Positions 6,419 to 13,199 of a DNA stretch of 38,265 bases are shown here, piece by piece. The position numbers and the translations under genes were made by a program. Origin of the DNA: Clostridia bacterium (GTDB lineage: Bacteria > Bacillota > Clostridia > Christensenellales > CAG-138); assembly GCA_017388175.1 (NCBI GenBank), contig JAFOTD010000055.1, forward strand, positions 1 to 38,265. The letters run 5' to 3'. Every line of letters begins with the position of its first letter. Within the stretch, counting starts at the first letter, position 1. The notes under the pieces are model-generated. The model was not told where the DNA came from, did no database searches, and worked only from the letters and a program-made list of their open reading frames with translations.

Positions 6419-7597
6419 TCAGTCCGCGTAGTTGTTGAAATAATTCTGCACGAGCACGATCGGCGTTCCCTTGTCTCCGCTGCCGCTCGTCAGATCGCAC
6501 AGCGACCCTATGAGATCCGTCAGTCTGCGCGGGGTGGTTCCCTGTGTTTCCATGCGCCCGACAAGGTTCTTTGCCTTCTCGCGGATGCGCGCTCGAATCG
6601 CCGCTTCAAGCGCCTCGCCGGAAAGCGATTGGAATTCGTTGTCCGCAAGATATTTGAGCTTCAGCTCGTTCGGAAGTCCTTTAAGCCCATCGGTATATCC
6701 GGGGGATACGACCGGATCGGCCAGCTCCCAGATCTTTCCGACCGGATCCTTGAACGCGCCGTCGCCGTAAACCATCGCTTCGATATGCACGCCGGTACGC
6801 TTATAAATCTCGCTCCGGATCGCTTCCGCAACCTCCGGCGCGTTTTTCGGGAAGAGTTTCACGACGTTCTCCGTCGCCTTGTTGGAACCCAAAAGTCCGT
6901 ATTCCGGCTGATATCCGCTGCCGTTTCTCGAGGCGTTCATGATATCGCACAGCGTCAGCACGCGCTTTGCGCCGGCCTTTGTCAACCGCCGCGCCGTTCT
7001 CACACGTTCGTGCACGTTGCAGCAGAGGACGTTTTCGGCATACCGCAATATGGCTGCCGGATCGTTCGCAAGCAGAATGACCGCTTCCGCGCCTTCCTCC
7101 TCGATCAGCGAACGATAATACGCGAGATAATTCACGCCCGTGAACGGATGGCACGGCTCGCCGAACTTTGCGACGAACTCCGCCTCGGTAAATGCGTCCG
7201 CGTACGGGTTCACGCCCGCATCGAGCAACGCGTCCTCGTCGATCAGATGGTTCCCTTCCTCATCGGCCGGATAAGAAAGCTGCACGACGACCTTTTTTGC
7301 GCCGCGCGCGATGCCGCGAAGACAGATCGCAAACCGGTTCCGACTCATGATCGGAAATACGACGCCGACCGTATCGCCGAGCTTTTCACGCACGTCCGCG
7401 GAAATATCGTCCACCGTGCAGTAATTGCCGTCCGCCCTTGCAACGACCGCCTCGGTCACCGCGACCACGTCACGGTCATGAAGCTGAAAGCCGTCGTCTT
7501 TTGCCGCCTTCAAAACCGCGTCCGCAACGATCGTCACCACGTCGTCGCCTTCGCGCACGATCGGCGCTTTGATGCCTCTCGAGATCGTACCTGCCAT
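6419..7597 (-). CDS. Coenzyme F420-0:L-glutamate ligase (CofE)-like protein
   Basis: A 392-residue protein with the CofE-type fold signature: an N-terminal block ISRGIKAPIVREGDDV, then DRDVVAVTEAVVARADG and the conserved VVFPIMSRNRFA. In F420-producing organisms CofE adds glutamates to F420-0. Here the protein is much longer than archaeal CofE (about 250 residues) and no F420 biosynthesis gene is nearby, so it is probably a ligase with another acceptor. The ATG at 7597 follows GGAGGG; the longer frame to 7675 would run through the promoter and is rejected. It is transcribed alone from a strong promoter. Confidence 0.75.
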   Translation of the reverse strand: MAGTISRGIKAPIVREGDDVVTIVADAVLKAAKDDGFQLHDRDVVAVTEAVVARADGNYCTVDDISADVREKLGDTVGVVFPIMSRNRFAICLRGIARGAKKVVVQLSYPADEEGNHLIDEDALLDAGVNPYADAFTEAEFVAKFGEPCHPFTGVNYLAYYRSLIEEEGAEAVILLANDPAAILRYAENVLCCNVHERVRTARRLTKAGAKRVLTLCDIMNASRNGSGYQPEYGLLGSNKATENVVKLFPKNAPEVAEAIRSEIYKRTGVHIEAMVYGDGAFKDPVGKIWELADPVVSPGYTDGLKGLPNELKLKYLADNEFQSLSGEALEAAIRARIREKAKNLVGRMETQGTTPRRLTDLIGSLCDLTSGSGDKGTPIVLVQNYFNNYAD

Positions 7598-7630
7598 TTG
7601 ATGTCCCTCCTTCGTCAAAAAACAAGTATT

Positions 7631-7659
7631 ACCATACAGGAATGTGCGGCGTTTGTCAA
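7631..7659 (-). promoter_or_regulatory. Sigma-A promoter of the CofE-like gene
   Basis: Minus-strand TTGACA (7654-7659), 17-bp spacer, TATGGT (7631-7636), about 35 bp before the start codon. Confidence 0.82.
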
Positions 7660-7673
7660 GCCTCTTTCGCCGC

Positions 7674-7696
7674 AAAAAAAGAGCGCGTCCACGCTC
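7674..7696 (-). terminator. Terminator of the CarD-type gene
   Basis: Stem GAGCG/CGCTC followed by seven T on the minus strand, 15 bp past the stop codon at 7712. It abuts the CofE-like promoter. Confidence 0.8.
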
Positions 7697-7711
7697 CGGT
7701 TTTCTGATTGA

Positions 7712-8185
7712 TTATTCGGCTCCTACCAGCGGAAGGAAGTTGGACTCGTCGGTTTCGGTTGCCGCGGCCAGCTCCGCAACGAGCACCTGCCGCGCCGTCA
7801 GATACATCTTCCGTTCGCCCGCGGAAAGTCCGCGATCACGGTCGCGCCGCATCAGGCACTTGACAACGTCTGCGACGACCATGATATCGCCGCCGCGCAG
7901 CTTGTCGAGATTGTCGCGGTAGCGCTGATTCCAGTTGTCGCTTTCTTCAGAGCATTCCTCCGTTTTCAAAAAGCCAACGACCTTTTCACAGGTTTTTTCG
8001 TCCGCCAGTGCGCGAAGCCCGACCTCGTCCGAACGCAGAACAGGAACCATCGCCGTCATGCGCCCGATGGTGAACCGCAGTCGATAATACTGCGCCGTTT
8101 CTCCGAGAATGGTCTGTTCTTCGATCGCTTCCACCACGCCGACGCCATGCATCGGATAGCAGACGAGATCTCCGATCTTATACAC
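7712..8185 (-). CDS. CarD-family transcriptional regulator
   Basis: A 157-residue protein with the N-terminal CarD/TRCF RNA-polymerase-interaction domain (IGDLVCYPMHGVGVVEAIEE at residues ~4-23) and a helical, basic C-terminal half rich in Arg and Lys that would contact promoter DNA. CarD proteins bind the RNA polymerase beta subunit and stabilise open complexes, commonly at rRNA and growth-related promoters. The start is GTG at 8185, preceded by GGAGGGG. Two tandem sigma-A promoters lie upstream, so high or dual-input expression is likely. Confidence 0.88.
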   Translation of the reverse strand: MYKIGDLVCYPMHGVGVVEAIEEQTILGETAQYYRLRFTIGRMTAMVPVLRSDEVGLRALADEKTCEKVVGFLKTEECSEESDNWNQRYRDNLDKLRGGDIMVVADVVKCLMRRDRDRGLSAGERKMYLTARQVLVAELAAATETDESNFLPLVGAE

Positions 8186-8344: not shown

Positions 8345-9217
8345 TCAAATACGCTTGTCCTTGTCTACCAGGCGCAGGATAAGCATGCTGCCGATCAGGA
8401 AAATCACGGCGGACAGCAGCAGGATCCCCCAGGCAAGAAGCAGCTTGTCCCGATCGGAATATACTTCCTGCGGCACGTTAAAGCTGATTTTTGCGCCGCC
8501 AATCTCCAAGGGCGTCTGATAATAATCATACGAAGATCTCATCCCGGCGGATGAGTTTGCAATGCGCAGCGCAGCCTCAAGCCCCCATTTGCTGGCAGTG
8601 ATGTTGGAAATGGCCTTGCTGATCCCGCCGTTCAGGGGGAAGATTGCGCCCGACATGACGAGCTGAATCACCAGCACGAACGGCATGATCGTCATTGCGG
8701 TGTTCTCCTTCCGCACAAGGCTTGAGATGAAAATCGCAATCGTGTCCGCCGCGAAGATCACCAGGAAGAACGTAATATACAGATCAAAGAAGCAGTTGGT
8801 CACGGTACCGGTTCCGTCGATGTTCTCTCCATACTTGATATAAAGCAGGATCAAGATGATCAAAGCCTCGATCGCGGAAAGGAACACTTCGTAGATCGCG
8901 TGCGCCGTGACATATGCGGAGAGCCTCATGCCGGTACGGTATTCGCGCTTGATGATTGCGCGTTCGCGGCAGATCGACTGGATCGAATTGAACAGGCCGA
9001 CCCAGATGCATCCGCTGATCACCGTAAACAATCCGTTCTTCGTGGTTAAAAAATCATCCTTGAAAAGATCCTTCGTAACCGCCATGATGATGACCATGAG
9101 GATCAGCGTCGTAATAAAGTTCTTCCACTGCTTCTCGTTGACAAACAGACGGAAGCACTTTCCCAAATATACCCTGACCTGGCCGAACCAGGTAATTCTG
9201 TTTTTACTGTCTGCCAT
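8345..9217 (-). CDS. ABC-2-type transporter permease
   Basis: A 290-residue membrane protein of the ABC-2 type with about six hydrophobic segments: one near residues 48-65, one near 80-98, a cluster at 125-200 (with SGAIFPLNGG, typical of ABC-2/ABCG permeases) and a last one near 265-285. It would form the membrane part of an exporter driven by the FHA-ABC ATPase encoded just upstream. The ATG at 9217 lies inside the 3' end of the ATPase gene and has GGAGG upstream, so the pair overlaps by 14 bp. The longer frame to 9256 is rejected. The substrate is unknown. Confidence 0.85.
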   Translation of the reverse strand: MADSKNRITWFGQVRVYLGKCFRLFVNEKQWKNFITTLILMVIIMAVTKDLFKDDFLTTKNGLFTVISGCIWVGLFNSIQSICRERAIIKREYRTGMRLSAYVTAHAIYEVFLSAIEALIILILLYIKYGENIDGTGTVTNCFFDLYITFFLVIFAADTIAIFISSLVRKENTAMTIMPFVLVIQLVMSGAIFPLNGGISKAISNITASKWGLEAALRIANSSAGMRSSYDYYQTPLEIGGAKISFNVPQEVYSDRDKLLLAWGILLLSAVIFLIGSMLILRLVDKDKRI

Positions 9218-11183
9218 AACCCGCCTCCGCAAATCGACTGATAAACTCATCCGCACGACCTTCGCCGCCTTCGTTGACTCTGTTGACCCGCTTCACGATG
9301 TCCTCAAGGCGATCCGTTTCAAAGAACGCGCAGGCCTCCTGCGGCGTACCCGCAAACGCAAGTCTTCCGGTGTTGTTCTTGTCCTTGGCAAGAACGATGA
9401 CCTTGTCGAACTGATCGAATGCGCGGTCCGGAATATGGGAAATGACCATGACGATCTTGCCCGTATCCGCGATCTTTCTGACGATATCCCACATGTTGTC
9501 CGCATTGGAACCGTCCAGGCCGGAGTCCGGCTCGTCAAGGAAGAACAGCAGCGGCTGCCCGACGTACTCGACGCCGATACTGAGCCTCTTGCGCTGACCG
9601 CCGGAGAGCTGACCGACCAGCTTGTCCTTTTCTTTTTCAAGGCCGAGCAGCTTCATCGTCTCGGCGACCGCTTCGCTCTGCGCCTTCCTGCTGTTGCCGA
9701 GGTGCATCTTCGCGGAGTCCTCCAGCGTATCCTTCACGACGTCGGTTCTGCGAAGCAGATCCTCCTGCTGCACGTAGCCGATCGCATGCTTCATTTTGTC
9801 GTATTCACGATAGATGTCGATATCGTCGTACTTGATGACGCCGTTCGCCGGTTCATAGCCCATGACGGCGTTGATAAACGTCGTCTTGCCTGCGCCGGAT
9901 CCGCCGAGAATCAGAACGAGATTGCCTTTCGGAATGAACAGACGGATATCACGCAGCAACGCTTCCTTCCGGCTGAGTCCCTTTCGAACCGTGCGTTCCC
10001 GGATGTTGATCTGCAGTCCGCCCGGGCGTACCACCGGCGGCTTTCTCGCCGGATCGGTCTTGCGCTTCCACATCGTCTGACAGACGAGCGCGTTGCCGAC
10101 ACAGATGAAATACGTGCCGTCGATGATCACGACGTCCATCGGACTTAAAGGTCTGTTCAGTTCGCCGACACGGTTGTTGACGGCAAAGGGAGTAAGTCTG
10201 GAGAAATGCGAAACGGCAAAGCGTCCCTTCTGGTAGGAGAAGAATACGGACTGCATCGTCGGATCGCCCTCGCGTACGAGCTGGATCGTTTCGTTGGCGT
10301 TTTTGTTGACCGGGATACGGTCCCACGTCATTCCTTCGGGTATCCTGTCCACGAGAATCAGCACCGTATCGTTTGCGCGCGCGAGATCGAACGCGCTGTG
10401 GATGCGCACGATATCGCCGAACCGAAGCTCAAACCGGTCCGTTGCAGGCTGTTCGTCGTTCAGATACATGACGCAGCGCTTGCTGTAATTGCGCAGCCAG
10501 ATCCTTCCGTCTTCCAGAAAGACTTCGCCCTGTTTGCGGTCCGCGTCCGCGGAAAGCGGAATATCCGGAACCGTGCTGTTCGCCCAGACGCTGCCGATGA
10601 GCATGCCGTTCAGAACGGGCAGAATGCGGGTCTCGCCGTTTCCGTTGATCGAAATAAAATATGAAGACGAAATAACGGGCTTGTTCTTTCGGTTGGAGAA
10701 AACGACCCTGGAGGTGCGCTGTTCTTCGCCGCCGACCACGCCCAGCCTCGTGCCGCTGCCGATGACGCCGAACTTGCTGCCCTTCTTTTCCGGCTGCACC
10801 TGAAGCGTCAGCTTTCTGTCGTCTGACCATTCCGGACGCGGAGCGATCGGCGCTCCCGCGAACGTGCCTGCGTTGTCCGCCGCCGAACGCAGCACACGCG
10901 ACGGTGCGGTTTTCCCGGTCGGAAATTCCGGCTTGCGCTCGGGAGCGGGCGCTGCGGGACGCTCCGGCGCGGTCATTACGGGAGGCTCCGGCTTGCGCTC
11001 GGGGACGGGCGCTGCGGGACGTTCCGGCACGGGCGGTGCCGGAGGTTCCGCCTGATTCGTCTCTTCCTGAAGGGTTTTTCTGCCGAAGGAGGCGTTCTTA
11101 TTGCTGAAGATCAGCCTCTTCGATCCGGTATTTGTCCCGTTTCCTGTGGATCCGGAACCGAACAGCGGTTTCTTCTCTTCCAT
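9204..11183 (-). CDS. ABC transporter ATP-binding protein with FHA domains
   Basis: A 659-residue protein. Residues ~45-92 are proline/glutamate rich with two exact-length 20-residue repeats. Residues ~185-265 form an FHA-like phosphothreonine-binding domain; ~300-375 look like a second, more degenerate one. Residues ~390-640 are an ABCG-type nucleotide-binding domain: Walker A GGSGAGKTT at ~427-435, signature LSGGQRKR, Walker B LLFFLDEPDSGLD and switch His in VISHIP. The order resembles mycobacterial Rv1747, where FHA domains are phosphorylated-partner sensors, but there the permease is fused and here it is a separate gene. Activity is probably tuned by a Ser/Thr kinase not encoded here. Start 11183 has GGGGTGG nearby; ATG at 11195 is an alternative 4 codons longer. 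Confidence 0.9.
   Translation of the reverse strand: MEEKKPLFGSGSTGNGTNTGSKRLIFSNKNASFGRKTLQEETNQAEPPAPPVPERPAAPVPERKPEPPVMTAPERPAAPAPERKPEFPTGKTAPSRVLRSAADNAGTFAGAPIAPRPEWSDDRKLTLQVQPEKKGSKFGVIGSGTRLGVVGGEEQRTSRVVFSNRKNKPVISSSYFISINGNGETRILPVLNGMLIGSVWANSTVPDIPLSADADRKQGEVFLEDGRIWLRNYSKRCVMYLNDEQPATDRFELRFGDIVRIHSAFDLARANDTVLILVDRIPEGMTWDRIPVNKNANETIQLVREGDPTMQSVFFSYQKGRFAVSHFSRLTPFAVNNRVGELNRPLSPMDVVIIDGTYFICVGNALVCQTMWKRKTDPARKPPVVRPGGLQINIRERTVRKGLSRKEALLRDIRLFIPKGNLVLILGGSGAGKTTFINAVMGYEPANGVIKYDDIDIYREYDKMKHAIGYVQQEDLLRRTDVVKDTLEDSAKMHLGNSRKAQSEAVAETMKLLGLEKEKDKLVGQLSGGQRKRLSIGVEYVGQPLLFFLDEPDSGLDGSNADNMWDIVRKIADTGKIVMVISHIPDRAFDQFDKVIVLAKDKNNTGRLAFAGTPQEACAFFETDRLEDIVKRVNRVNEGGEGRADEFISRFAEAGYGRQ
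10908..11027 (-). repeat. Two tandem 60-bp coding repeats
   Basis: Two consecutive 60-bp units in the FHA-ABC gene encode 20-residue repeats starting PERPAAP and containing PERKPE. The DNA units are nearly identical, so the number may vary between strains. They form a flexible linker before the first FHA domain. Confidence 0.8.
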
Positions 11184-11258
11184 TGTCCACCCCATAACTG
11201 TTTTTTGGATGATGCCGGACCGTTTCCCGACGTTCCGAACATTCTCCCATCATTTCGT

Positions 11259-11349: not shown

Positions 11350-12429
11350 TCAGTCCAGCGGATCGTCCCGGTAATTTAACAGAAACCGTGCGCTCTTACG
11401 CGTGTACAACCGTTCGGCAAGTCCGTCCGCAACGGGGATCAGAATGCGCTCGTGCTCGCACTGTACCGGCGCGACTTCGTGCATTTGTCCCGTTAGACTG
11501 AAATTCAGGCAGGCGCAGTGGTGTCTGCAGCGATCTGCGATCGCACAGCCCTCGCAATCCGGTTCCGGATCGAGCGAAGCGCGATAGATTTCACGCTGTT
11601 TTTCTCTGTTGAGTCCGCTGTTCACGTCGCCCATGCGATACGCCGGAAGATTGAGGAACTGATTGCACGGATAAATCGACCCATCCCACGAAACGGACGG
11701 CTGGCGCATGCCAAGCTTGCATTCAAGACACGGCCGGTCATTCAGATACGCGGCGATCTTGGACAGAAAATTCAGATAATGCAGCGGCCGGACATCGTCA
11801 AAATGCGCGTCGCAAAGATCGGCGATCCGCTCGTACTGCGTCTTTAAAACCGCCATCGAAGCGTCGTCCCATCCCGCGTCGACGCGGTAGTCGATTGCTG
11901 TATTGATCCGTGAAAACCCCCGTTCGTACAGCCATTGAACCGATTCCGCCATCCGGTCGACCGTCGAAGGCATTACGGTCTGCATCGCGACCGCATTCGG
12001 CTGATATTCGAGAAGCAGATCGACGATCGGCTCAAGCCGTTTCATCGTGGGCTTGCCGTCGCGTGTAACGCGCTGAACGTCCTGCAAAAGCCCGTCGTGC
12101 GACAGCGCGATTTCAAGGTTCTGTGCGTTCGCAAACTGCAGAAAGCTCTCGTCCAAAAGCATACCGTTCGTCGTCATCTTGAACCGCACGGCAGTTTCGG
12201 CTGCCTTCGCCTTTTCCGACGCGTAACGGCAGATACATTCGATGACGCCCCGCTCGAGCATCGGCTCGCCGCCGAACAGCGAGAAGCCGTTTTTGCTGTG
12301 CCCGAAAGAGAACGCGAGATCGACCGCTTTCTTTGCGGTCTCCTCCGTCATGTGCGCGCGGCTGTGCGTTTCGTAACAATAACGGCAGGCTAAATTACAG
12401 TCTGCCGTCAAATGCAAAGTAAAATTCAT
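11350..12429 (-). CDS. Radical SAM/SPASM peptide- or protein-modifying enzyme
   Basis: A 359-residue radical SAM enzyme. The first iron-sulfur cluster motif CNLACRYC is at residues 11-18, followed by the SAM-binding FGGEPML motif. The C-terminal third is a SPASM domain binding auxiliary clusters: a Cys, then WDGSIYPC, then CEGCAIADRCRHHC and a later Cys. Enzymes of this layout are mostly anaerobic sulfatase maturases or RiPP maturases that act on peptide side chains. No sulfatase is nearby; instead two paralogous 113-residue genes lie directly upstream in the same direction, the nearer ending 9 bp before this start. They are therefore the likely substrates. The ATG at 12429 has GAGGA upstream. 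The modification formed cannot be predicted. Confidence 0.9.
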   Translation of the reverse strand: MNFTLHLTADCNLACRYCYETHSRAHMTEETAKKAVDLAFSFGHSKNGFSLFGGEPMLERGVIECICRYASEKAKAAETAVRFKMTTNGMLLDESFLQFANAQNLEIALSHDGLLQDVQRVTRDGKPTMKRLEPIVDLLLEYQPNAVAMQTVMPSTVDRMAESVQWLYERGFSRINTAIDYRVDAGWDDASMAVLKTQYERIADLCDAHFDDVRPLHYLNFLSKIAAYLNDRPCLECKLGMRQPSVSWDGSIYPCNQFLNLPAYRMGDVNSGLNREKQREIYRASLDPEPDCEGCAIADRCRHHCACLNFSLTGQMHEVAPVQCEHERILIPVADGLAERLYTRKSARFLLNYRDDPLD

Positions 12430-12438
12430 ACGGATTCC

Positions 12439-12780
12439 TCACGGTTTTTCGGTCTCTTCGGGAACAGCTATTTTGCCCATCAGCGCAGGTTCTTCACGGC
12501 CGTCCGATCCGTCTTCTCCGTCCTTGATGATGTCGCCGTTTTCGTCGACCGCCGGTTCTCCCTCAAGTATAAGATCTTCTTCGCCGGGATCAATCCCGAC
12601 CTCTCCGTCGAGAACGAGCTCGTCAGTCGGCTCCGGCAGCGGTTCTCCACCCAGCAGGACTTCCTGTGTGCAGCCAGCCGTGCCCGCAAGCGCAACCGCC
12701 GCCGCGGTCGTGAGGATCGCTCCCTTTATGAGCTTTTTCGGATAGTTCGGACGGTATTCGCCGATCTGTTTTTGTTTCAT
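12439..12780 (-). CDS. Precursor-like or lipoprotein-like small protein A (113 aa)
   Basis: I do not recognise the family. The 113-residue protein has a basic N-terminal segment with EYRPNYPKKLIKGA (residues 8-21), a hydrophobic stretch (21-35) and Cys37 in a TAGC lipobox-like site. The rest is acidic, proline-rich and lacks other cysteines. It holds repeated units of the form L-[IVL]-x-G-E: LLGGEPL (42-48), LVLDGEVGID (55-64), LILEGEPAVD (70-79) and a C-terminal ALMGKIAVPE (99-108). The neighbour B has the same length, the same PNYP motif at residues 11-14 and Cys at 37. The ATG at 12780 follows AAGGGGA; the frame to 12852 is rejected. It ends 9 bp before the radical SAM gene, so it is a plausible modification substrate. 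Confidence 0.75.
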   Translation of the reverse strand: MKQKQIGEYRPNYPKKLIKGAILTTAAAVALAGTAGCTQEVLLGGEPLPEPTDELVLDGEVGIDPGEEDLILEGEPAVDENGDIIKDGEDGSDGREEPALMGKIAVPEETEKP

Positions 12781-12803
12781 TTTGCATCCCCTTTCGGTCG
12801 TTC

Positions 12804-12817
12804 TGTCTATATAGACA
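12804..12817. promoter_or_regulatory. Palindrome before small protein A
   Basis: A perfect 14-bp palindrome TGTCTATATAGACA, 23 bp before the start codon of protein A in the 77-bp gap between the two paralogues. It could be an operator or include a -10-like TATATA. No matching -35 box is convincing. Confidence 0.4.
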
Positions 12818-12857
12818 ATCCGGTGGGCAAATGTGTTACATGGTTTTGACAAAAATT

Positions 12858-13199
12858 TTACGGTTCAAAAACCGCTACGTCGCCCATCAGCGTAACTTCC
12901 TCCGGATCCTCCGTCGGCTCCAGCGGCACGATGCCTTCAGTCCTGGGAAACTCGTCCGGCTGCGGCGGCTCGGTCGCGATATATCCCATATCCTGCAGAT
13001 CAATACGCGTCTCGCCGTCGAGAATCAGCTCCTCGCCCGGCGTAGGTTGCGGATCCGGCGCGAATCCGGCAACGGCGGTATTCAGCTTACAGCCTGCCGA
13101 CGTACCGAGCGCAAGCATCGCAGCCGCAGCGAGCGCCGCGCCCTTCACAACTTTTCTGGGATAGTTCGGCTGATAGCCGGAAAGCTTTTGCCGTCTCAT
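12858..13199 (-). CDS. Precursor-like or lipoprotein-like small protein B (113 aa)
   Basis: Paralogue of protein A, also exactly 113 residues and of unrecognised family. Shared features at identical positions: Tyr9, PNYP (11-14), Lys16, KGA (19-21) and a GC pair with Cys37 ending a hydrophobic stretch. After Cys37 it is proline- and acid-rich, with ELILDGETRID (57-67) and a C-terminal TLMGDVAVFEP (103-113) matching the repeats of protein A. The ATG at 13199 follows AAAGGAG by 7 nt. It is the first gene of the putative B-A-radical SAM operon. The hydrophobic segment plus cysteine suggests export and lipid attachment, although Ser/Thr at position -3 is not the usual Leu. Alternatively, residues 1-36 act as a leader for the radical SAM enzyme. 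Confidence 0.75.
   Translation of the reverse strand: MRRQKLSGYQPNYPRKVVKGAALAAAAMLALGTSAGCKLNTAVAGFAPDPQPTPGEELILDGETRIDLQDMGYIATEPPQPDEFPRTEGIVPLEPTEDPEEVTLMGDVAVFEP

Follow-up and report, generated by a model that had tools for sequence, protein, structure and literature searches.

Are the two small proteins encoded directly ahead of a radical S-adenosylmethionine (SAM)/SPASM enzyme in a clostridial genome the substrates of that enzyme, and what would happen to them afterwards? The question is raised by contig JAFOTD010000055.1 of Clostridia bacterium assembly GCA_017388175.1 (GTDB lineage Bacteria; Bacillota; Clostridia; Christensenellales; CAG-138), the whole 38,265 nucleotides of which are referred to here as the window. 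A preliminary description had placed two same-direction genes of 113 codons each ahead of the radical SAM gene, with a gap of 9 bp, and had proposed that they encode the substrates of a maturase of ribosomally synthesized and post-translationally modified peptides (RiPPs). This layout is present at positions 11350 to 13199, as follows.

11350..12429, minus strand: radical SAM/SPASM maturase gene, 359 amino acids (aa)
12439..12780, minus strand: substrate 2, putative small prolipoprotein, 113 aa; its stop lies 9 bp ahead of the maturase gene
12858..13199, minus strand: substrate 1, putative small prolipoprotein, 113 aa

The residues listed in that description as common to both small proteins are correct (Y9; P11, N12, Y13 and P14; K19, G20 and A21; C37; and a C-terminal LMG-x-[IV]-AV), and at 39% identity (E 6e-14) the two are paralogues. 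Their equal length is a coincidence because relatives span 71 to 150 aa. For substrate 2, the open reading frame (ORF) lister chooses an upstream TTG as the start (137 aa), but a Shine-Dalgarno-like AAAGGGG precedes the ATG at 12780, which also agrees with the starts of relatives.

Pairing of the small proteins with the enzyme

We scanned one collection, with one genome per species, and identified the enzyme in 39 loci of named contigs, of which 37 contain at least one complete small protein. The titles of these loci name uncultured Clostridia, Clostridiales, Eubacteriales, Bacillota or (two) Christensenella sp., and a ruminant stomach compartment is named for 11 of them. Two loci (L035 and L069) belong to one genome, and near-identical rows (L034/L035, L047/L049, and L060/L061) are counted apart, so that our counts are of sequences and not of events. 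In the genomes of the window's family, a set that overlaps the named-contig loci and is not summed with them, the enzyme (E ≤ 1e-70) was found in 43 of 103 genomes and in 6 of 26 genera. Among 396 genomes drawn from the order, 10 had the enzyme (E ≤ 1e-55), all from the same family. Viral contigs gave no enzyme match, and plasmids gave only six records, at 25-26% identity, which we took as other radical SAM proteins.

A substrate profile built from 53 small proteins and searched over the 103 family genomes returned 114 rows. Among the 66 best matches, 61 lie at most 564 bp from an enzyme (three of them as the second piece of an ORF already counted), three are cut by a contig end on the enzyme-facing side (G091:C95, G097:C2, and G020:C68), and two (25.8 and 24.9 bits) lie inside ORFs of 427 and 1188 aa. 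The 48 weaker rows lack the leader wholly or in large part: 47 begin no earlier than profile position 12, and one begins at position 6. We retrieved 12 low-scoring matches, namely the 427-aa ORF and 11 of these 48; all have lipoprotein-like N-termini, most carry a Pro/Thr/Glu-rich linker, and none has YP before the Cys. Counted from the enzyme, a small substrate is present at 41 of 44 enzyme places in the family genomes, and the other three are an enzyme match lacking its start (G097) and two places with a large lipoprotein (G069 and G125). With 61 of the 66 best matches adjoining an enzyme and three others truncated at contig ends, it is very likely that the small proteins are the substrates of the enzyme. 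Small proteins occurring routinely away from any radical SAM gene, which would have spoken against the proposal, were not found in the 103 family genomes, and we regard the substrate assignment as a strong claim.

The pair is kept in differing surroundings: it lies behind prs in the window's group, whereas other loci have neither prs nor a recA-like gene, and in another group the gene ahead of the pair is one that we take to be recA. The distance from the last substrate stop to the enzyme start is mostly 9 bp (16 cases), 4 bp (8 cases) or an overlap of 4 (4 cases). Pooled ratios of nonsynonymous to synonymous differences (pN/pS), which are uncorrected and come from nonindependent pairs at least 62% identical, are 0.36 for the leader-signal part (100 pairs) and 0.50 for the tail (96 pairs). 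As expected, these sequence comparisons fit translated genes under purifying selection, with the tail held more loosely.

The substrate scan left out L051, where the enzyme is at base 1; we discarded a spurious ORF at L056 4873 and manually added four substrates that the pattern had not caught. The enzyme alignment has 35 rows and leaves out L035, L039, L040, L049, and L051. In L040 (G008:C27:12318-13394), the enzyme gene has one in-frame TGA and both substrate ORFs are open, which may reflect a sequencing error or a decayed copy.

Leader, signal segment, and tail of the small proteins

Neither window substrate has a Pfam or NCBIfam match at E up to 10. Their parts, all on the minus strand, are as follows.

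13152..13199, minus strand: substrate 1 leader, residues 1-16 (Y9, P11-Y13-P14, and K16), from conservation in 53 aligned sequences
13092..13151, minus strand: substrate 1 signal-peptide segment, residues 17-36, hydrophobic and ending SAG-C; modelled helix 16-35
13089..13091, minus strand: substrate 1 Cys37 codon, the proposed lipidated Cys, invariant in the 53 aligned rows with Gly/Ala preceding
12861..13088, minus strand: substrate 1 acidic tail with two counted Gly-motif copies (RTEGIVPL and TLMGDVAV) and, judged by eye of the sequence, one looser repeat copy (LILDGETRID)
12733..12780, minus strand: substrate 2 leader, residues 1-16, from shared residues and the alignment
12670..12732, minus strand: substrate 2 signal-peptide segment and Cys37 (GTAG-C), from sequence scan and alignment
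12442..12669, minus strand: substrate 2 acidic tail with four counted Gly-motif copies (LLGGEPLP, VLDGEVGI, ILEGEPAV, and ALMGKIAV)

We aligned 53 of 57 distinct substrates, leaving out three that lack a signal and one more from L073. M1, Y13, P14, and C37 do not vary among these rows, and conservation of Y9, P11, and K16 is 90% or more. In 54 of the 57, one Cys follows a hydrophobic segment and is preceded by Gly (47) or Ala (7); these 54 have the hallmarks of lipoproteins, i.e., K/R in the n-region, a hydrophobic segment and a lipobox Cys with G/A/S at −1. The three without a hydrophobic segment contain no Cys. Because the Cys tracks the hydrophobic segment in this way, it appears to belong with the signal peptide rather than with any core chemistry, and the single Cys of each window substrate is probably a lipobox Cys rather than a core residue. 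In a model of substrate 1, the helix at residues 16-35 is the sole long element, with no confident fold (predicted local distance difference test, 63.7; predicted template modelling score, 0.16).

Twelve sampled generic lipoproteins of the family resemble the substrates in the signal/Cys part, but all 12 lack the YP leader. Since the YP motif is kept in signal-less relatives (L042, L045, and L073), leader and signal are separate elements. The suggestion that residues 1-36 could act as both leader and export signal is supported and refined: the two roles would fall to two distinct elements. The signal-less, Cys-less operon members with the YP motif lie at L042 5429-5689, L045 2382-2630, and L073 3318-3533; those of L042 and L045 share EEALAILRSPA-x-EF-x-PEELHAVGIVP and might be cytosolic substrates.

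The tails are rich in a Gly-centred motif. The pattern xGx[VIMLP]x[VILMPFY] occurs 199 times in 54 tails (3970 residues), versus 52.6 ± 6.2 copies in 500 shuffles (maximum, 69), and six times in 755 residues of the 12 generic lipoproteins. Two residues after the 374 tail Gly, Val is found 100 times and Ile 59 times.

The enzyme and a second, larger lipoprotein type

The enzyme matches Pfam Radical_SAM above the cut-off (E 4.1e-15) and SPASM just below it (20.2 bits versus a cut-off of 21.5). The CxxxCxxC motif spans residues 11-18, and further conserved Cys are at 234, 237, 255, 292, 295, 301, 305, 307, and 324. All 38 close enzyme rows, the window's among them, have the SPASM-type cysteine pattern; C307 is kept in 50 of 50 rows. 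C234, a possible extra auxiliary-cluster ligand, is present in 38 of 38 close and 6 of 12 distant rows, of which two also have small substrates and four others have the spacing shifted by one residue. With a CxxxCxxC motif, the SPASM Cys set and an adjoining small substrate gene, the system has what generally marks a radical SAM/SPASM peptide maturase. The nearest solved relative is CteB (PDB 5wgg), and the structure of ChlB has been solved together with its leader. A match to anSME (TIGR03942), which acts on one Cys/Ser of a sulfatase, reaches 82.4 bits versus a cut-off of 349.45. No RiPP recognition element (RRE) is fused to the N-terminus, where residue 1 aligns with CteB residue 94, and a separate RRE partner was not searched for. 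Not every enzyme of this kind has an RRE of its own; PqqE uses PqqD (excerpt of PMC8326336).

Related enzymes 37-43% identical to that of the window were found in G069, G125 (two), G511, G723, G914, G977, G986, G1088, and G1114; the enzyme of G1046, 89% identical to that of G986, likewise has a large lipoprotein. A lipoprotein of 219-320 aa adjoins these enzymes or, in L078, lies one ORF away. It starts with YxxPxYPxK, followed by PxLLKxxPxRWK, a hydrophobic segment and a Cys. Ten of the 12 aligned proteins also contain GRGSFGCVSVAPPxFLSEEEA or near variants (the GC loop) and have an end of the type DFLEWLKGQGII. The loci (L074, L075, L078, L081, L082, L097-L102, L115, and L116) come from scattered phylum genomes; searches detected the type in 2 of 299 phylum genomes and in 7 of 391 class genomes, one of the latter (G840) by a weak match. 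L102 carries three copies in tandem, and one of them contains an internal stop. The alignment of 12 leaves out the second L101 protein, both L115 proteins and the further L102 copies. A copy on G914:C5 has no enzyme within 12 kb, yet it starts 426 bases from the contig end; another G914 contig has the enzyme and a large lipoprotein, and that copy is also near a contig end.

In profile-profile comparison, the leaders of the small and large proteins are similar, and the alignment spans the leader, signal and Cys only. L072 duplicates the L067 locus and was left out of the enzyme tree, in which a branch with 100/100 support splits the enzymes of small substrates from those of large ones. The 320-aa protein of L078 has repeat-like motifs (best-scoring segment above all 200 shuffles) before a large-type C-terminus; no segment of the remaining 11 large proteins exceeded the shuffles. 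The two large lipoproteins tested reached no Pfam or NCBIfam cut-off (chance-like values of 0.14 for Pfam W2 and 0.18 for NCBIfam LptM). In the PDB, too, large lipoproteins gave nothing beyond subthreshold, chance-like matches (0.25 and 1.1).

Proposed pathway and alternatives

The gene pairing, its co-inheritance, the leader, the lipobox-like Cys, the repeats and the predicted enzyme fold can be read from the sequence. From these we infer, and consider likely, a substrate-maturase operon in which leader-guided modification of the tail in the cytosol would precede Sec export, lipidation and leader removal. The N-terminal YxPxYPK leader would be bound in the cytosol by the neighbouring RRE-less enzyme, which would alter the acidic tail, most likely at the Gly-centred repeats ([L/T]-x-G-x-[VI]-x-[VI]-[DE]). 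Sec export, lipidation at Cys37 by Lgt and cleavage by LspA would then leave the tail anchored outside the cell and the leader discarded. Since this route is general, no dedicated exporter or protease would be required, which fits the observation that neighbouring ATP-binding cassette (ABC) transporter genes are not kept across loci. In the window, an ABC-type ATPase with a Pro-rich N-terminal repeat (PAPVPERKPEPP) and an ABC-2 permease lie directly behind the enzyme (8345-11195, minus strand). As a dedicated exporter, this pair was rejected: the two occur together in 1 of 39 loci (L037), though some loci end soon past the enzyme. Farther on (6419-8185, minus strand), a CarD-type regulator has as its neighbour a homologue of F420-0:gamma-glutamyl ligase (PF01996), and 12 of 39 loci have the ligase near the enzyme. 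An Rfam scan of the window gave no match at the gathering threshold.

As to the chemistry, kinship with CteB, PapB, and anSME leads us to favour, as a guess by analogy that falls a little short of even odds, a two-electron oxidation (−2 Da per site) at a non-alpha side-chain carbon with a nonthiol outcome, i.e., a cross-link or desaturation. More broadly, we give an even chance to the idea that one radical SAM family reads a YxxPxYP tag placed before a lipoprotein signal and edits the cargo before Sec export, in which case the tag would be portable and the modification displayed on the surface. The cargo would include both repeat tails (39-113 residues) and larger domains (roughly 170-265 residues).

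Several observations weigh against the proposed pathway. Gly is the sole invariant repeat residue, so that the repeats single out no target residue, and ordinary lipoproteins, too, have acidic Pro/Thr/Glu tails that act as plain linkers. At −3, the lipobox is atypical, with mostly Ala/Thr (32 of 54) and Leu in just 3 of 54. A target motif common to the repeats and the GC loop of the large lipoproteins is unsupported, the GC site ranking 3 to 72 in 10 proteins, and the tree program warns of several long branches meeting, L073, L078, and L102 among them. Finally, further Cys in 13 of 57 substrates would permit thioethers in part of the family.

That the small proteins are ordinary acidic-linker lipoproteins, with the enzyme acting elsewhere and the adjacency a matter of inherited operon structure, agrees with the resemblance of signal and tail to the family's generic lipoproteins. 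We consider it quite unlikely, as the pair persists across differing gene surroundings, no lone small proteins were found in the 103 family genomes where contigs permit, and the YP leader, found in 0 of 12 sampled lipoproteins, is yet common to the second enzyme-linked lipoprotein type. An epipeptide-like reaction has a better, though still low, probability: the enzyme would epimerise the Val/Ile that flank the repeat Gly, leaving D-residues on an exported lipopeptide. The Val/Ile flanks and the lack of an invariant nucleophile are consistent with it, the fully conserved C307 could be the H donor, and EpeE/YydG is likewise a peptide-modifying radical enzyme, EpeE acting on a Val and an Ile (excerpt of PMC8326336).

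A ranthipeptide-type thioether maturase, joining a Cys thiol to Asp/Glu/Thr side chains as PapB and CteB do, appears improbable. The best NCBIfam match is PapB (NF047865; E 2.3e-54), but its 184.9 bits are far under the family cut-off of 340. In the SCIFF family (TIGR03974), to which CteB belongs, the peptides are Cys-rich; the window enzyme scores 137.8 bits versus a cut-off of 425 and lacks the fused RRE, and each window substrate has one Cys. Ranthipeptides and sactipeptides have a core Cys as thioether donor, which neither window substrate has. PapB accepts Cys-Xn-Asp with n of 0-6, and PapA has six target motifs in one substrate (both from passages of PMC9413430); the window substrates likewise have several repeats but lack the CX3D/E target motif, their sole Cys being the lipobox-like Cys37. 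The single auxiliary cluster of CteB leaves a coordination site open, to which a substrate Cys could bind (passage of PMC8326336); C234 could provide an extra cluster ligand here. Acidic residues are plentiful, and 10 of 12 large lipoproteins have the GC loop. The argument in the preliminary description that a single Cys speaks against thioethers stands for the window substrates, in which thioethers are unlikely, and not for the family, given the 13 relatives with further Cys. In L057-L064 and L067, 8 of 10 substrates have an extra tail Cys (ICTEP, ETCPAP, ECTEP, and similar), and judging from these motifs, thioether chemistry is possible in that branch.

A parallel for the proposed substrate-maturase pathway lies in another enzyme class. 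According to parts of PMC12452194, RiPP precursors with Sec signal peptides are highly unusual, and Sec export in the natural host has been shown experimentally for bufferins only. Like the substrates described here, MNIO bufferins have N-terminal Sec signals, some of lipoprotein type, and include long proteins; unlike here, they are modified by a multinuclear iron oxidase, usually at Cys, and in most cases with partner proteins (same source, in part). Among open-access journal papers, we recognised no account of radical-SAM-paired prolipoproteins with a YP leader. The system would be a radical SAM counterpart with lipoprotein substrates, in which housekeeping machinery alone exports, trims and anchors a modified peptide. 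Its enzyme would act on many repeat targets and depend on a short leader that might be transferable. The pairing of the enzyme family with larger lipoproteins hints at a general chemical editing of surface proteins.
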